A stretch of 43,092 bases of DNA from Nitrospinota bacterium (lineage in GTDB: Bacteria > 2-12-FULL-45-22 > JACOWJ01), in contig JACOWJ010000030.1 of NCBI GenBank assembly GCA_016176845.1, positions 1 to 43,092 of the forward strand, given 5' to 3'. The notes under the pieces are model-generated. The model did not search any database and was not told where the DNA came from. It saw only the letters and a list, made by a program, of their open reading frames with translations. A program made the translations under genes and the position numbers. Of the stretch, positions 13,977-20,361 are shown in pieces (the stretch's first letter is position 1; every line of letters starts with the position of its first letter).

Positions 13977-14999
13977 CTAATCGTTGTGGTGGATGTAACC
14001 GTACCGGATCGCTTCCACGTTCTGCGAGAAGTTCCGGGCGGGCAAGAGGGATTCGAAGTTGACCTTCTCCAGGTTGATGCCGATGGCGGACAACATCTTT
14101 CCCAATGCCAGCATGTTCACGAACAAGGGAGAGCCAAAGGTCTCGACCGAGGCCCGTTCGAAGGAGACCTGCTCCTTCTCCAGGTCGTTGCCCGGGTGGT
14201 CCGCCTCGACCAGGTGATAGATCGACTCCTCCACGATCACCTTCTTGGCCTTGCAGTGGTAATTGTCCGCTTGGGCCAGTTGCAAGAGCACGTCGGCCTC
14301 ATCGATGAAGGGCACCTCGATCCGTCCGTCCGAGTAAATCAACTCGGCCTCGATGCTGCCGGTCCGGACCGTGGGGGGATAGATCACGTTAAGCGAGACC
14401 TCCTTCTGGAACTTGGCCAGGATGTTGCCGAGGATCTCTCCCATCAGCTTGATGCCCTGGCCGGCGTTGCCGATCAGGACGATTTTGCGGGTGGTGGCCT
14501 CTGCCGGTACCTCTTTTAGGGCTTTGACCATATAGGTCAAGCCTATCCCGAAAAGGCTCTTCTCGATTTGGGCCCGCTCCTGGAAGCCTAACCGGGCGAA
14601 GAGCCTTACCGAGCGCTCCTCCTGGGAATAGGCGCACAGCTCAATCTGATAACATCCTCGCTGGCGAAACTCCTCGCTGGCCGCCTCGATCATGCGCGTT
14701 CCGATCCCCTGACCGCGAGAGCTCGCGTCTACCCCCAGCCAGTGGAGGTTGCCCGAGTTGCCCAGCGTGACCCAGCCCAGCAGGAACCCCACCACCTTTC
14801 CCCCTCGCTCGGCCACCAGGTAGAGGCTTTCCTTCTGCTCCAGGCGGCTCAGCAGGCGATTGGCTTTGTACGGCTCCTTGAAAGACTGGCGGATCTTCTC
14901 CGATTCCTCCCGGTGCAGCTCGTCGATGGTGCCGGAGAAGAGCTGCACCACCCTATCGACATCCCCTTCTTGCATAATGCGGATCTGGGCTTCACTCAT
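13977..14999 (-). CDS. GNAT acetyltransferase domain fused to 2-oxoacid:ferredoxin oxidoreductase gamma subunit
   Basis: N-terminal GNAT (LHWLGVDASSRGQGIGTRMIEAASEEF) then KorC-like IVLIGNAGQGIKLMGEILGNILAKFQKEVSLNVIYPPTVRTGSIEAELIYS; ATGA overlap with korB. Confidence 0.85.
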   Translation of the reverse strand: MSEAQIRIMQEGDVDRVVQLFSGTIDELHREESEKIRQSFKEPYKANRLLSRLEQKESLYLVAERGGKVVGFLLGWVTLGNSGNLHWLGVDASSRGQGIGTRMIEAASEEFRQRGCYQIELCAYSQEERSVRLFARLGFQERAQIEKSLFGIGLTYMVKALKEVPAEATTRKIVLIGNAGQGIKLMGEILGNILAKFQKEVSLNVIYPPTVRTGSIEAELIYSDGRIEVPFIDEADVLLQLAQADNYHCKAKKVIVEESIYHLVEADHPGNDLEKEQVSFERASVETFGSPLFVNMLALGKMLSAIGINLEKVNFESLLPARNFSQNVEAIRYGYIHHND

Positions 15000-15727
15000 T
15001 TGACGATCCCCAACTCCTTCTCTGCCAACAAGTGACCGTTGTCGCTGGTCCGGATCTTGTATTCGTCCTTGTAATGGATCAGCATCTCGTAGCCGTTCTT
15101 GAAGCCCAAGCGGCGCCCATTGTTCGAGATACAGGGCGCCTTGATATCCAGGAAGGAGAGCCCCTTCCACTCGATGGCCTCTTTGAGGCATTTCTTCAGG
15201 TGATTATAATGATAGACCGTGGTGCGGGCATAGAAATCGTCGTGGGCGCGGATGATGGCCTGGACGTTGATCGGCCGATCTTCGTTGCCTTTGGGGCTGG
15301 TCAGCGTCTTGATGTGCAGCTCGGTCGTGGGAGACTTCTGCCCGCCGGTCATCCCGTAAATCTCGTTGTCGATGCAGATGATGTTGATATCCGTGTTGCG
15401 GCGGCAGGCATGCAGGAGGTGGTTCCCTCCGATTCCCAGGAGGTCCCCATCCCCGGAGAAGACGAACACGTTCATCTTCTCGTTGGCCATCTTGATCCCT
15501 TCGGCCACAGGGATGGCCCGACCGTGGATGCTGTGGACGGTGTCCAGCTTGAAGTAGCCTGCCGACCGGGCCGAGCATCCGATGCCCGAGACCACGGTGG
15601 TATTCTCGTAAGTAAATCCCTGCTCCTCAAAGGTCTGGCAGACTGCCTTCAGGACGATGCCTATCCCACAGCCGCCGCACCACGAGGTCGGGAATCTCTC
15701 TTCCCTTATATAGTCTCGATAGCCCAT
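14996..15727 (-). CDS. korB: 2-oxoacid:ferredoxin oxidoreductase beta subunit (TPP-binding)
   Basis: PTSWCGGCGIGIVLKAV, GIGCSARSAGYF, FSGDGDLLGIGGNHLLHACRRNTDINIICIDNEIYGMTGGQ. Confidence 0.92.
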   Translation of the reverse strand: MGYRDYIREERFPTSWCGGCGIGIVLKAVCQTFEEQGFTYENTTVVSGIGCSARSAGYFKLDTVHSIHGRAIPVAEGIKMANEKMNVFVFSGDGDLLGIGGNHLLHACRRNTDINIICIDNEIYGMTGGQKSPTTELHIKTLTSPKGNEDRPINVQAIIRAHDDFYARTTVYHYNHLKKCLKEAIEWKGLSFLDIKAPCISNNGRRLGFKNGYEMLIHYKDEYKIRTSDNGHLLAEKELGIVK

Positions 15728-16725
15728 TGGACCTCCCTCGCGACCTGGTTGAGGTTGATCTTGCCCCCCAGGACGGAGACCAGCTTCACCCTCCTCTGGA
15801 GCAACCTCTCCACCTCGGAGAGGTATTGCCCCGCGTTCATCTCCAGCACCAAGATCTTCCGGTACCGCTGCGCGATCTCGGTCAACTCCTCGATCATGGG
15901 GAATATCCGGATGGGGCGGAATAGGGAATATTGATCTTTGAAGGCGTAAGCCAGGCGCGACATGGCGCCGAAGGAGATGAGGAGGGTATCGGAGTTTTTG
16001 TTCTCAAGGTATTCGTAGAAGAGATAGTTCTTGGCTACCTCCAGCTGTTTCTTTTGCAAATGCGCCATATGCTCCTGGTGAGCCTCTGCGTCAGTCGCCT
16101 TGGGGAAAGCCCCCTTGTGCGTAAGGCCGGTGTAATGGCGGGTGCCCAGGGCCCCCAAAGGTGGGAGCGTCCGTGGCTTGATGGGGATCTCCGCCGGGAC
16201 CATCGTCTCGGTGAGGTGACTGATGTAGCCATCGCTCAACAAGATAACGGGGCTCAGGGAGTCCTCGGCGGCATTGAAGGCCTCCATGGAATAGCGGTAC
16301 AGCTCGGAAACGGAGTTGGGATAGAAGACAATGGGAAAGTAATCGCCGTGGCTCCCATATTTACATTGCAGGATATCCCCCTGGGCCGGCAGGGTTGGCA
16401 TCCCGGTGCTGGGCCCCACCCGCTGGACATCCACCACCACCAGCGGGGCCTCGATCATGTGGGCCAGGCCGATCCCCTCCTGCTTCAAGGAGAAGCCAGG
16501 ACCCGAGGTCGCCGTCATAGACTTGGCCCCCGCCAGGGAAGCCCCGATGACGGCGTTGATGGAGGCGATCTCATCCTCCATCTGGACCACCTTGACGTTG
16601 GTCTTCACCAGATAATGCAAGATCTCTGAGGCGGGGGTGATGGGGTAGCTGGCGTAAAAGCTCAGCCCCGCCTTCACCGCCCCCAGGGCGATGGCCTCAT
16701 TCCCCTGTAGGAGCAGTTTTTCCAC
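15706..16725 (-). CDS. korA: 2-oxoacid:ferredoxin oxidoreductase alpha subunit
   Basis: LLQGNEAIALGAVKAGLSFYASYPITPASEILHYL; TATSGPGFSLKQEGIGLA; VVDVQRVGPSTGMPT. Confidence 0.92.
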   Translation of the reverse strand: MEKLLLQGNEAIALGAVKAGLSFYASYPITPASEILHYLVKTNVKVVQMEDEIASINAVIGASLAGAKSMTATSGPGFSLKQEGIGLAHMIEAPLVVVDVQRVGPSTGMPTLPAQGDILQCKYGSHGDYFPIVFYPNSVSELYRYSMEAFNAAEDSLSPVILLSDGYISHLTETMVPAEIPIKPRTLPPLGALGTRHYTGLTHKGAFPKATDAEAHQEHMAHLQKKQLEVAKNYLFYEYLENKNSDTLLISFGAMSRLAYAFKDQYSLFRPIRIFPMIEELTEIAQRYRKILVLEMNAGQYLSEVERLLQRRVKLVSVLGGKINLNQVAREVQWAIETI

Positions 16726-16939
16726 TCTCGTTCACCTCTTCCAGTTCGATCGCGATATCGGGGCAATAGCGCTCGCAGAGCTTGCAGCCTATGCACAGTC
16801 CCAGATCGGTGACCTGGTTATTCTTGATCACGAGGTTCTTGACCGGACAGAGTCCGATGCAGATCTCGCACGTCGCGAACTTGCAGTATTTGTGGTTGAT
16901 GATTAGCCGGTAAGTCTTCTCTGTCTTCGTTGGGCTCAT
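16697..16939 (-). CDS. korD: 4Fe-4S ferredoxin subunit of 2-oxoacid oxidoreductase
   Basis: CKFATCEICIGLCPVKNL and CIGCKLCERYCPDIAIEL; overlaps korA start. Confidence 0.85.
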   Translation of the reverse strand: MSPTKTEKTYRLIINHKYCKFATCEICIGLCPVKNLVIKNNQVTDLGLCIGCKLCERYCPDIAIELEEVNESGKTAPTGE

Positions 16940-17042
16940 AATACCCTCAAGCGGGGGGACCCTTTCCATGGCGGGGTCCCATCCTATTTACGGAGTGGGA
17001 GGAAGTGCCTTCCTCTCGTCGGTTAAAGGTTAGAATGGGAGT

Positions 17043-17233: not shown

Positions 17234-19111
17234 CTAAGCGATCTTTTTCCGCTTCCGGGAAAGGTAGTCCACCACCACGTACTCCCCGATCCGATCCGGG
17301 GTGGTAAAAAAGGCCCGGCCCCGGTTGATCCGGGCCAGCTGGTCCACAAACCGCTCCAGGAAGCGGTCCTTGCCCAACATGAAGGTGTTAATCACGATCC
17401 CGTCCGCCGTGCAGCGCTTTACCTCTCGGAAGGTCTCTTGAAGCGTGCGCTGGCTGGGCGGGTACTGGAGGTAAAGGTAGCTCCCCTCGAAATGGGCGGT
17501 GGGCTCTCCATCCGTGATGAGGATGATCTGTTTGTTGATCCCCCGCATCTGGGAGAGGATCTGCCGCGAGAGTTTTAAGCCCTCCTGGATATTGGTGAAG
17601 GACATGGGGATGTCCATTCGGTTTACCTCCTGTGAATCGATCTCCAGCGCCAATGGGCCCCAGGAGGGGCCGAAATGATCGACCATCATCAGGGAGGAGA
17701 AGCCAAAGGGCTTGGGATGGACGAATGGCAGATCTTCTAAGAGGATCTCCTGGGCCAGGGTGTAGAACCCGACCACCTTGAAACCATCCCGGGGGAACTG
17801 GGACCGAATCAGCTGCTCCATGGCCAGGGCCACCTTCTTAGCTGCCAGGAATTTGTTGTAGCGGTCCATGGAGCCGCTCATGTCTAACATGAGAACCAGC
17901 GAAGTCTGCGTCAGATTTTCCTGCCGGTAGGTCTCAAAGTCCCCGGGGAGAAGCCGGAGGGAAAGATGCGGGGAGCGAGGCGGTGGGATAGGGGGAGGGT
18001 GGAAGGTAAGGGGTGAGCGGAGGCCGTCGGCTTCTCGCAGCAAAGAATTCTTCAGGGTTGCCTCCAGGTGCAGGTCGAAGGGATCTCCGTATTCGTAACG
18101 GTGGCTTTCATCGATCCGCAAACCCCCGATCCCCGGGCGCTCGGTCGTGTGGTGGCCAAAGGGGTCTTTCTTCAAATGGGCGAAGATGTCCCGCAAGGCC
18201 TTCTGGCCGATCCGGCGGATCCCTCGAGGACTCAGGATATACCGATCTCCCCTTTGGTAAATATAGCCCCGCGCTTCCAGTTGTTGGAGGAGCCGTTGAA
18301 GTCGCTCCACCTGTTGGCGCCCTTCCTCCCCCAAGACCTCCAGAACCGCCGACGCAGGGAGATCCTTCAGGCAGCCCTGGCCACGCTGGATTTCCCGCAG
18401 GGTCTCCTCCAGTTGTTCGATCCGGTCGAACTGTTCCTTGACCCGGAGGGCCTGCTCGATGTCCAGGGGCTCTTTTCCCCAGAAAGGATAGGACTGCAGG
18501 GAAGAGAGCTTGGCCAGGTTGCGGGAGAGCTCCTGGAGCTGCTCCCGCAGCCCCTCGTCCATGGAGAGGAAAGCCTCCTGCATCATTTTTTCTATCTCTT
18601 CCCGCATCTCCCGGGGCATACTCTGGAGGAGCGATTCCATCTGGGCCAACTCTTTTTGGATGCGGTCCAACAACTGGTCCAGGCCAAGCTCCCGGTAATT
18701 GGGGGGGAAGCGGTCTCCATATCTCTCAAGGAAGCCCTGGTAATCGGGCCTGGCCCCGGCGATCCGTTCTCGGATCATCTCGTTCAGCTCCTTGATGAGC
18801 TTCTCGGCCTCCTGGATCCTTTCCTGGGTCAGGCCACGTAGCTGATCCCGAAGAGATTGATAGAGGGAGTCCAGATCGTATTTTTCCAACAGCTCTTGTC
18901 GTTTCTTCTGCAGGTCGCGCCACAGGTCCTGCAAGCCTTTAATCTGGTTCCCCTCCTGGTCAGCGGTGCCTCTTTGGCAAAGCCGCTGCAGGAGCACATC
19001 GATGTCTCCATCTTCCAGCACCCGGTCGGACAGATGGTCCATCAGCTGGTCCACATCGAAGGGAATAGCCTCCTGGAGGGGGTCCCAGCGGGAATAGCGA
19101 TATCGGTTCAT
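17234..19111 (-). CDS. VWA-domain protein with long helical N-terminal region
   Basis: MIDAS-like DMSGSM; IILITDGEPTA; coiled-coil-like Q/E/L/R-rich N-terminal 350 aa. Confidence 0.85.
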   Translation of the reverse strand: MNRYRYSRWDPLQEAIPFDVDQLMDHLSDRVLEDGDIDVLLQRLCQRGTADQEGNQIKGLQDLWRDLQKKRQELLEKYDLDSLYQSLRDQLRGLTQERIQEAEKLIKELNEMIRERIAGARPDYQGFLERYGDRFPPNYRELGLDQLLDRIQKELAQMESLLQSMPREMREEIEKMMQEAFLSMDEGLREQLQELSRNLAKLSSLQSYPFWGKEPLDIEQALRVKEQFDRIEQLEETLREIQRGQGCLKDLPASAVLEVLGEEGRQQVERLQRLLQQLEARGYIYQRGDRYILSPRGIRRIGQKALRDIFAHLKKDPFGHHTTERPGIGGLRIDESHRYEYGDPFDLHLEATLKNSLLREADGLRSPLTFHPPPIPPPRSPHLSLRLLPGDFETYRQENLTQTSLVLMLDMSGSMDRYNKFLAAKKVALAMEQLIRSQFPRDGFKVVGFYTLAQEILLEDLPFVHPKPFGFSSLMMVDHFGPSWGPLALEIDSQEVNRMDIPMSFTNIQEGLKLSRQILSQMRGINKQIILITDGEPTAHFEGSYLYLQYPPSQRTLQETFREVKRCTADGIVINTFMLGKDRFLERFVDQLARINRGRAFFTTPDRIGEYVVVDYLSRKRKKIA

Positions 19112-19130
19112 CCCTTTGACCTCCCTGGTT

Positions 19131-20270
19131 TTATGGTTGGACGGACCTGGCGCAGCGGAACCCAATGATCATCGTCATCCGGTAGAAGTGCGCATAGGCC
19201 AGGCGGTTGCTGCAGCGGGCCACATAATCGAAGTCATCCCAGGAGCCCCCCTTCACCACCCGGTGGCTGTAGGTTTCGTCGAACCAGTCGGCCGTCCACT
19301 CCAGGACATTGCCTACCATGTCGTAACAGCCGTAAGGGCTGATGCCCCGGGGGTAACGGTCCACCGCCGTGTAACCCAGAACCCCACCTTCTTTCGTGTT
19401 GCAGCATTGAGGATCAAACCGGTCCCCCCAGGGGAAGAGGCGGCCATCGGTCCCCCGGGCTGCCTTTTCCCACTCTGCCTCGGATGGAAGCCGCTTGCCC
19501 CGCCAGCGGGCATAGGCGCGCGCCCGGTACCAGGAGATCCAGCGGGTTGCCGGGTAAGCGGCGCGCTCCGGGGGAAAGACGTGAGAGGGATCGAAGCGCA
19601 GGAACTGGGCATTGGTGACGGGATATCGATCGATATAGAAGGCCTCGACATGCGTGGGGCGGCGATCATCTCCCATCAGGAACTCGCCTGCCGGCACCAG
19701 GACCATCTCCTCCGGGTCCTCTCCGGCAGCAGGGGCGGGGCCGATGCTCGCCTCCTCCCATCCGAGCTCGGGATAGCTCCCCGGCGGGGGCTCAACCCCG
19801 AGTCGGCGCAAATGCCGGGCGGCCTCGACCTCCTCCAAAGACTCGGCGCACACCGGACATGCGAGGTCCCTTCCCACCTGATGGCTCCGGCAGAGGAACA
19901 TTTCCCAGCAGAAGCGGCAGCGAAAGGTGGCCTCGAAGCTGGGATTGCGTTTCCCGCAGAAGGGGCAATAGCTTTGAGGAAAGGGCCCTCCGAAGGTGTA
20001 TTGGATATCATCCCGAATCTTTTCGAAGATACGATTCGGCCGCGAGACCCTCAGAAAACCACCTTCTAAGGGAGAGCCCTTACGAGGAGAGGGTTGGGCG
20101 GGGCCGTTCTCCCCGGGCAAAAGGGGGCTTCCACAGCCACAACAGAACCGGGCCCCGACCCGGGTCGGCCTGGCGCAGAGGGGACAGGGCTTCAGAAGGG
20201 GGGTGCCGCAATGGTCGCAGAACCGCCCCCTTCCGCCTCGATTTCCGCAATGAAGACACCGGGAGTCCAT
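19131..20270 (-). CDS. multi zinc-ribbon protein with C-terminal formylglycine-generating-enzyme (SUMF1-like) domain
   Basis: CLHCGNRGGRGRFCDHCG, CPLCARPTRVGARFCCGCG, CPFCGKRN ribbons; MVLVPAGEFLMGDDRRP..VEAFYIDRYPVTNAQF..RLPSEAEWEKAARG..GNVLEWTADWF..VVKGGSWDD. Confidence 0.88.
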   Translation of the reverse strand: MDSRCLHCGNRGGRGRFCDHCGTPLLKPCPLCARPTRVGARFCCGCGSPLLPGENGPAQPSPRKGSPLEGGFLRVSRPNRIFEKIRDDIQYTFGGPFPQSYCPFCGKRNPSFEATFRCRFCWEMFLCRSHQVGRDLACPVCAESLEEVEAARHLRRLGVEPPPGSYPELGWEEASIGPAPAAGEDPEEMVLVPAGEFLMGDDRRPTHVEAFYIDRYPVTNAQFLRFDPSHVFPPERAAYPATRWISWYRARAYARWRGKRLPSEAEWEKAARGTDGRLFPWGDRFDPQCCNTKEGGVLGYTAVDRYPRGISPYGCYDMVGNVLEWTADWFDETYSHRVVKGGSWDDFDYVARCSNRLAYAHFYRMTMIIGFRCARSVQP

Positions 20271-20286
20271 ATGCTCGCTTCGCGAG

Positions 20287-20361
20287 AATTGCAAAATGCA
20301 AAATGCAAATTGGAAACTTTAAAATTCATTTTGCATTTTGCACTTTGCATTTTGCAATTCC
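20287..20361. repeat. heptad hairpin H (AAATGCA / ATTTTGC)
   Basis: AATTGCA AAATGCA AAATGCA AATTGGA ... ATTTTGC ATTTTGC ACTTTGC ATTTTGC AATTCC. Confidence 0.9.

Follow-up and report, generated by a model that had tools for sequence, protein, structure and literature searches.

A GNAT domain fused to the gamma subunit of a 2-oxoacid:ferredoxin oxidoreductase, found in a Nitrospinota genome and in anammox bacteria

2-Oxoacid:ferredoxin oxidoreductases (OFORs) drive the central carbon metabolism of anaerobes, and we know of no built-in regulatory domain described so far on these enzymes. In the window (the whole 43,092-nucleotide stretch of Nitrospinota DNA that was analysed), one gene joins a GNAT acetyltransferase domain to KorC, the OFOR gamma subunit. 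This raises the question of whether the fusion is genuine and, if so, what a GNAT domain does on this enzyme.

The fusion gene and its operon

We found a single uninterrupted ORF of 340 aa on the minus strand at 13977-14999 (coding 13980-14999, stop codon 13977-13979). It encodes a GNAT domain (residues 1-160, 14520-14999), a linker (residues about 161-171) and a KorC (POR gamma) domain (residues 172-335, 13980-14486). The GNAT half matches Acetyltransf_1 with 66.9 bits over residues 38-139 (Pfam, cut-off 20.7), and the KorC half matches POR (PF01558) with 46.4 bits over residues 179-335 (Pfam, cut-off 27.4); the same search found POR and no CoA-ligase domain. The GNAT half has the acyl-CoA pyrophosphate loop RGQGIG (residues 95-100) and conserved W87 and Y124, and the KorC half has GNAGQG and a divergent YPPTVRTG motif. 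Hence, the ORF and both Pfam domains agree with the sequence-only reading, which had described an intact GNAT fold (quoting GVDASSRGQGIGTRMIE, residues 89-105) followed by KorC without a frame break.

Structure prediction with AlphaFold gave two confident domains (mean pLDDT 86), with a pTM of 0.62 that leaves the placement of the two domains relative to each other uncertain. With Foldseek, the N-terminal domain matched the acetyl-CoA-bound GNAT 3f0a (TMt 0.86), and the C-terminal domain matched the OFOR gamma subunits 3on3, 3g2e and OorDABC 8ys5.

The fusion start codon overlaps the end of korB (14996-14998) as ATGA. A longer ORF from the ATG at 15191 is mechanically possible, but the start at 14999 is supported by this overlap and by the agreement of homologs. 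At the GNAT-KorC junction, there is no ATG, GTG or TTG other than M157 (MVKALKEV...), which is without a clear Shine-Dalgarno sequence; hence, free KorC is unlikely to be made from this gene.

The fusion is the last gene of the order korD-A-B-(GNAT-korC), all on the minus strand: korD (16697-16969, 90 aa) encodes the small ferredoxin subunit (Fer4 match), korA (15706-16725, 339 aa) the alpha subunit (POR_N, 181.8 bits, with a YPITP motif) and korB (14996-15727, 243 aa) the TPP-binding beta subunit (TPP_enzyme_C, 105 bits). Gene ends also overlap at korD/korA and korA/korB, so the tight start/stop overlaps claimed earlier for a korDABC operon occur at all three junctions. The beta subunit keeps the invariant TPP/Mg GDG motif (G92 D93 G94 D95) and the four cluster cysteines (C17, C20, C51 and C199); hence, the oxidoreductase of this operon looks intact. 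PF01558 gamma, alpha, beta and delta subunits thus stand in one operon, as in multi-subunit OFORs. The best NCBIfam match to a 2-oxoglutarate:ferredoxin oxidoreductase (KGOR) model, PRK09628 for the beta subunit, reaches 217.6 bits against an equivalog cut-off of 364, which indicates a subfamily relation only.

Elsewhere in the same genome (contig C46), a second OFOR has a stand-alone gamma subunit. The region upstream of korD (17234-20294) has, on the korD strand, genes for a VWA-domain protein and a zinc-ribbon/FGE-sulfatase-domain protein; homologs of the latter are found near kor in two other loci (L074 and L091).

Distribution and history of the fusion

No copy of the fusion turned up in a sample of 385 further genomes from across the domain (E <= 1e-11), and the KorC genes of about 60 loci from unrelated genomes had no GNAT part. 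We considered the fusion as an oddity of one lineage, and a KorB-guided scan overturned this. KorB proteins 49-63% identical to that of the window were found in Brocadiae, the anammox Planctomycetota, with genera such as Brocadia, Kuenenia and Anammoxibacter, and in scattered members of Aminicenantia and Armatimonadota; the gamma gene of these relatives is the same GNAT-KorC fusion. Among named genomes, 17 of 20 had a match. In 15 of them, one of which is the complete genome of Ca. Brocadia pituitae, it covers GNAT and KorC together; the other two, both archaeal MAGs, match with a gamma gene that has no GNAT part. In Brocadiae, the class of Ca. Kuenenia, 56/75 genomes match, 51 of them at full length and five partially. 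The class of the Aminicenantes locus had matches in 10/142 genomes, nine over both domains (a locus labelled Acidobacteria, L078, belongs to this class), and the phylum of the Armatimonadetes locus had the fusion in 1/201 genomes.

Since the same two-domain frame is present in dozens of independently assembled genomes, GNAT and KorC in one protein are a genuine fusion. An error of assembly or reading frame, or two genes read through as one, might be suspected because the window genome is a 1.5-Mb MAG that is 68% complete, from a phylum sampled by two genomes in total, and because three relatives have an apparently interrupted frame. However, the frame is free of stops in about 60 independent genomes, one of them complete, and this conservation rules out an artefact for practical purposes. 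The sequence-only reading had held that orthologs consistently split into two ORFs would indicate an error; the opposite was found.

These three frames all appear to break in the GNAT half. In two of the five partial Brocadiae matches (G418:C68:12459-13061 and G426:C1:1086813-1087406) the open frame starts there, and the third is in Aminicenantia (G751:C125:855-1761); sequencing error and decay cannot be told apart in these cases.

The two archaeal genes without GNAT (L100:8732-9259 and L102:8713-9201) belong to the same KorDAB subfamily, and sucC and sucD follow in the first of these loci. Because these two relatives have a gamma subunit without GNAT, the domain is not essential for the core enzyme.

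In the gamma tree, all fusions and these two archaeal genes form one well-separated, long-branched clade. One of the archaeal genes groups with the Aminicenantia fusions (support 97/89), so GNAT may have been lost there or joined twice, which stays uncertain given the long branches. The window gene adjoins the Armatimonadota gene with modest support (82/83). The other genome of the window phylum (locus L045) has a stand-alone KorC beside its closest KorB. Since that genome has a stand-alone KorC, and since the fusion is sporadic outside Brocadiae (1/201 and 9/142), the window lineage likely acquired the fusion horizontally; vertical inheritance of the fusion across bacteria appears unlikely.

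Constraint, pathway and possible roles of the GNAT half

The median dN/dS was 0.11 for the GNAT half and 0.047 for the KorC half (50 pairs), and distances computed from one half track those from the other (r = 0.96, reached by 0/2000 permutations). The M157-I173 stretch is 16 or 17 residues long in 43/43 aligned fusions. Hence, purifying selection acts on the GNAT half, which co-evolves with the KorC half and is kept for a function at a fixed spacing to KorC.

In four Brocadiae loci, the gene order is HMGL protein, sucC, Tll0287-like, sucD, korDAB, GNATkorC, fumarase alpha and fumarase beta. In most Brocadia and Kuenenia genomes, the fusion is separated from korDAB and directly adjoins fumarase, and a Woesearchaeota relative has korDABC followed by sucC and sucD. 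The window has no TCA neighbours at kor; fumarase lies elsewhere in the same genome, and no close sucD match was found in the two thirds of this genome that were recovered. Because sucC, sucD and fumarase adjoin kor in relatives, we consider this most likely a TCA-cycle OFOR that converts 2-oxoglutarate to succinyl-CoA. KGOR catalyses 2-oxoglutarate + CoA + oxidised ferredoxin <-> succinyl-CoA + CO2 + reduced ferredoxin.

Three further genes accompany kor in relatives. The HMGL-domain protein at the head of the sucC-sucD-kor-fumarase cluster (L076:2009-3418, L077:1942-3306, L083:1939-3312 and L099:1848-3212) could be a Re-type citrate synthase, which would bear on the missing annotated citrate synthase in anammox bacteria. 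The Tll0287-like (PF11845) protein lies between sucC and sucD in one copy or duplicated (L076:4598-5809 and homologs). In some Brocadiales, korA and korB are separated by a lysine-decarboxylase-like/SLOG gene (L084:2278-2985, L088:7257-7928 and L091:7102-7797).

A GNAT domain match was obtained in 14/14 aligned fusions. The arginine of the CoA loop is present in 43/43 fusions and the canonical RxxGx[GA] form in 36/43, including the window; the Aminicenantia loop reads RGxGxV, with valine as its last residue, and in three other fusions arginine replaces a loop glycine. F134 aligns with the active-site tyrosine of YpeA (profile alignment), and across the 43 fusions this general-acid position holds Phe (34), Leu (7), Ala (1) or Cys (1) and never the Tyr of active RimI/YiaC/PhnO-type lysine acetyltransferases. 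Beta4 (residues 84-90) has no acidic residue conserved across the aligned fusions; W87 in this strand is found in 43/43 and Y124 in 41/43. E27, K41, Y44 and Y124 are conserved and could form a non-canonical active site.

According to a review, RimI, YiaC, YjaB and PhnO require the tyrosine, and Gcn5 and PCAF have Phe at this position; RimI/YiaC without the glutamate and Gcn5/PCAF without the tyrosine are nevertheless active GNATs (PMC8556138). The absence of both in the fusion is unusual; because active enzymes exist without one or the other, it does not prove inactivity.

In 31/43 fusions (Brocadia, Kuenenia and relatives, e.g. L098:10543-11562), the KorC half has a C-x3-C-x2-C-x3-C(-P) motif that is absent in the window; it may form an additional binding site for an Fe-S cluster or a metal on gamma.

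We tentatively favour a role of the GNAT domain as an acyl-CoA-responsive regulatory module in cis on the gamma subunit, a reading that we put somewhat short of probable. It is preferred over catalysis because the CoA loop is kept while the canonical tyrosine and the beta4 acid are gone. The operon would yield a four-subunit 2-oxoglutarate:ferredoxin oxidoreductase whose gamma subunit permanently bears an N-terminal GNAT, with acetyl-CoA or succinyl-CoA occupying the conserved loop. The short linker of fixed length would relay the ligand state to the gamma wing, beside the ferredoxin docking site, and the relayed state might tune electron transfer or subunit geometry in either direction. In a model of the Sulfolobus tokodaii OFOR, ferredoxin is held by wings made of domain III, the counterpart of gamma (PMC5020499); therefore, a GNAT domain on gamma could control ferredoxin access.

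As the close rival to this reading, the GNAT domain may instead be an active lysine acyltransferase in cis, transferring acetyl or succinyl groups from acetyl-CoA or succinyl-CoA to lysines of KorABC, SucCD, fumarase or ferredoxin as feedback control, like Pat-type GNAT fusions. The conserved CoA loop, the strong purifying selection, the candidate non-canonical site and the nearest solved relatives, which are acetyltransferases (YpeA, PaiA-type and RimI), speak for this, as does the precedent of PatZ/SePat and SlPatA, which join a GNAT to the domain of a CoA enzyme (PMC8556138). We regard it as possible but doubtful, since the tyrosine is missing in every aligned fusion, beta4 is without a conserved acid, no acyl-acceptor site is known and the literature that could be searched yielded no acetylproteome of anammox bacteria. 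The fuller version, in which the OFOR carries its own acyltransferase whose non-canonical site acylates the complex or its partners from acetyl-CoA or from its own succinyl-CoA, seems rather unlikely. If true, carbon flux and low-potential ferredoxin would come under direct feedback from the product of the enzyme.

The sequence-only reading had connected the GNAT to an enzyme that makes or uses acyl-CoA and suggested sensing, autoacetylation or channelling. The link to an acyl-CoA enzyme holds, and the gene neighbourhood of relatives points to a succinyl-CoA producer; autoacetylation is not the obvious default, given the loss of the tyrosine and of a conserved beta4 acid.

A role in structure or assembly (tethering, oligomerisation, or docking to fumarase or SucCD), with the CoA loop as a relic of the fold, would fit the constant linker length, the position of the fusion beside fumarase even where it is separated from korDAB, and the loop variants of some lineages. 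However, the loop arginine is invariant, unlike the expectation for a relic, and we judge this account improbable.

Under the preferred regulatory reading, regulation of the fusion OFOR is one possible cause of the incomplete TCA cycle that isotope tracing found in Ca. Kuenenia despite the annotated genes (PMC8027424). For what is likely the 2-oxoglutarate step of anammox bacteria, a domain on the enzyme that binds CoA or acylates would give a concrete reason for this step being tuned or off.

Comparison with known systems

The searchable literature, which leaves most subscription papers outside its reach, yielded no description of an OFOR whose gamma subunit bears a GNAT; hence, this architecture appears undescribed, a new combination of two known families. 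OFOR and GNAT are classic families, and Pat proteins are known examples of a GNAT fused to an acyl-CoA synthetase-like domain.

With KorDABC/OorDABC (8ys5, 3g2e and 3on3), the fusion system shares the D-A-B-C genes, the PF01558 gamma, the PF01855 alpha, the four-Cys TPP beta, the gamma fold and, in its relatives, the TCA neighbourhood. It differs in that its gamma subunit adds an N-terminal GNAT, forms a separate long-branched clade and falls under the NCBIfam equivalog cut-offs.

The stand-alone GNATs YpeA, RimI and TA0374 (PaiA type) were among the top profile and structure matches and share the fold and the CoA loop. In contrast to them, the fusion GNAT is attached to KorC, has mostly Phe or Leu at the active-site Tyr position and has an invariant Trp in beta4.

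In Pat/PatZ/SlPatA (NDP-forming acyl-CoA synthetase-like), a GNAT is likewise joined to an acyl-CoA enzyme domain, and the GNAT is N-terminal in type II (PMC8556138). Those proteins have an inactive acyl-CoA synthetase domain, whereas the fusion joins its GNAT to the gamma subunit of an oxidoreductase whose operon appears intact, and this GNAT is without the canonical tyrosine.
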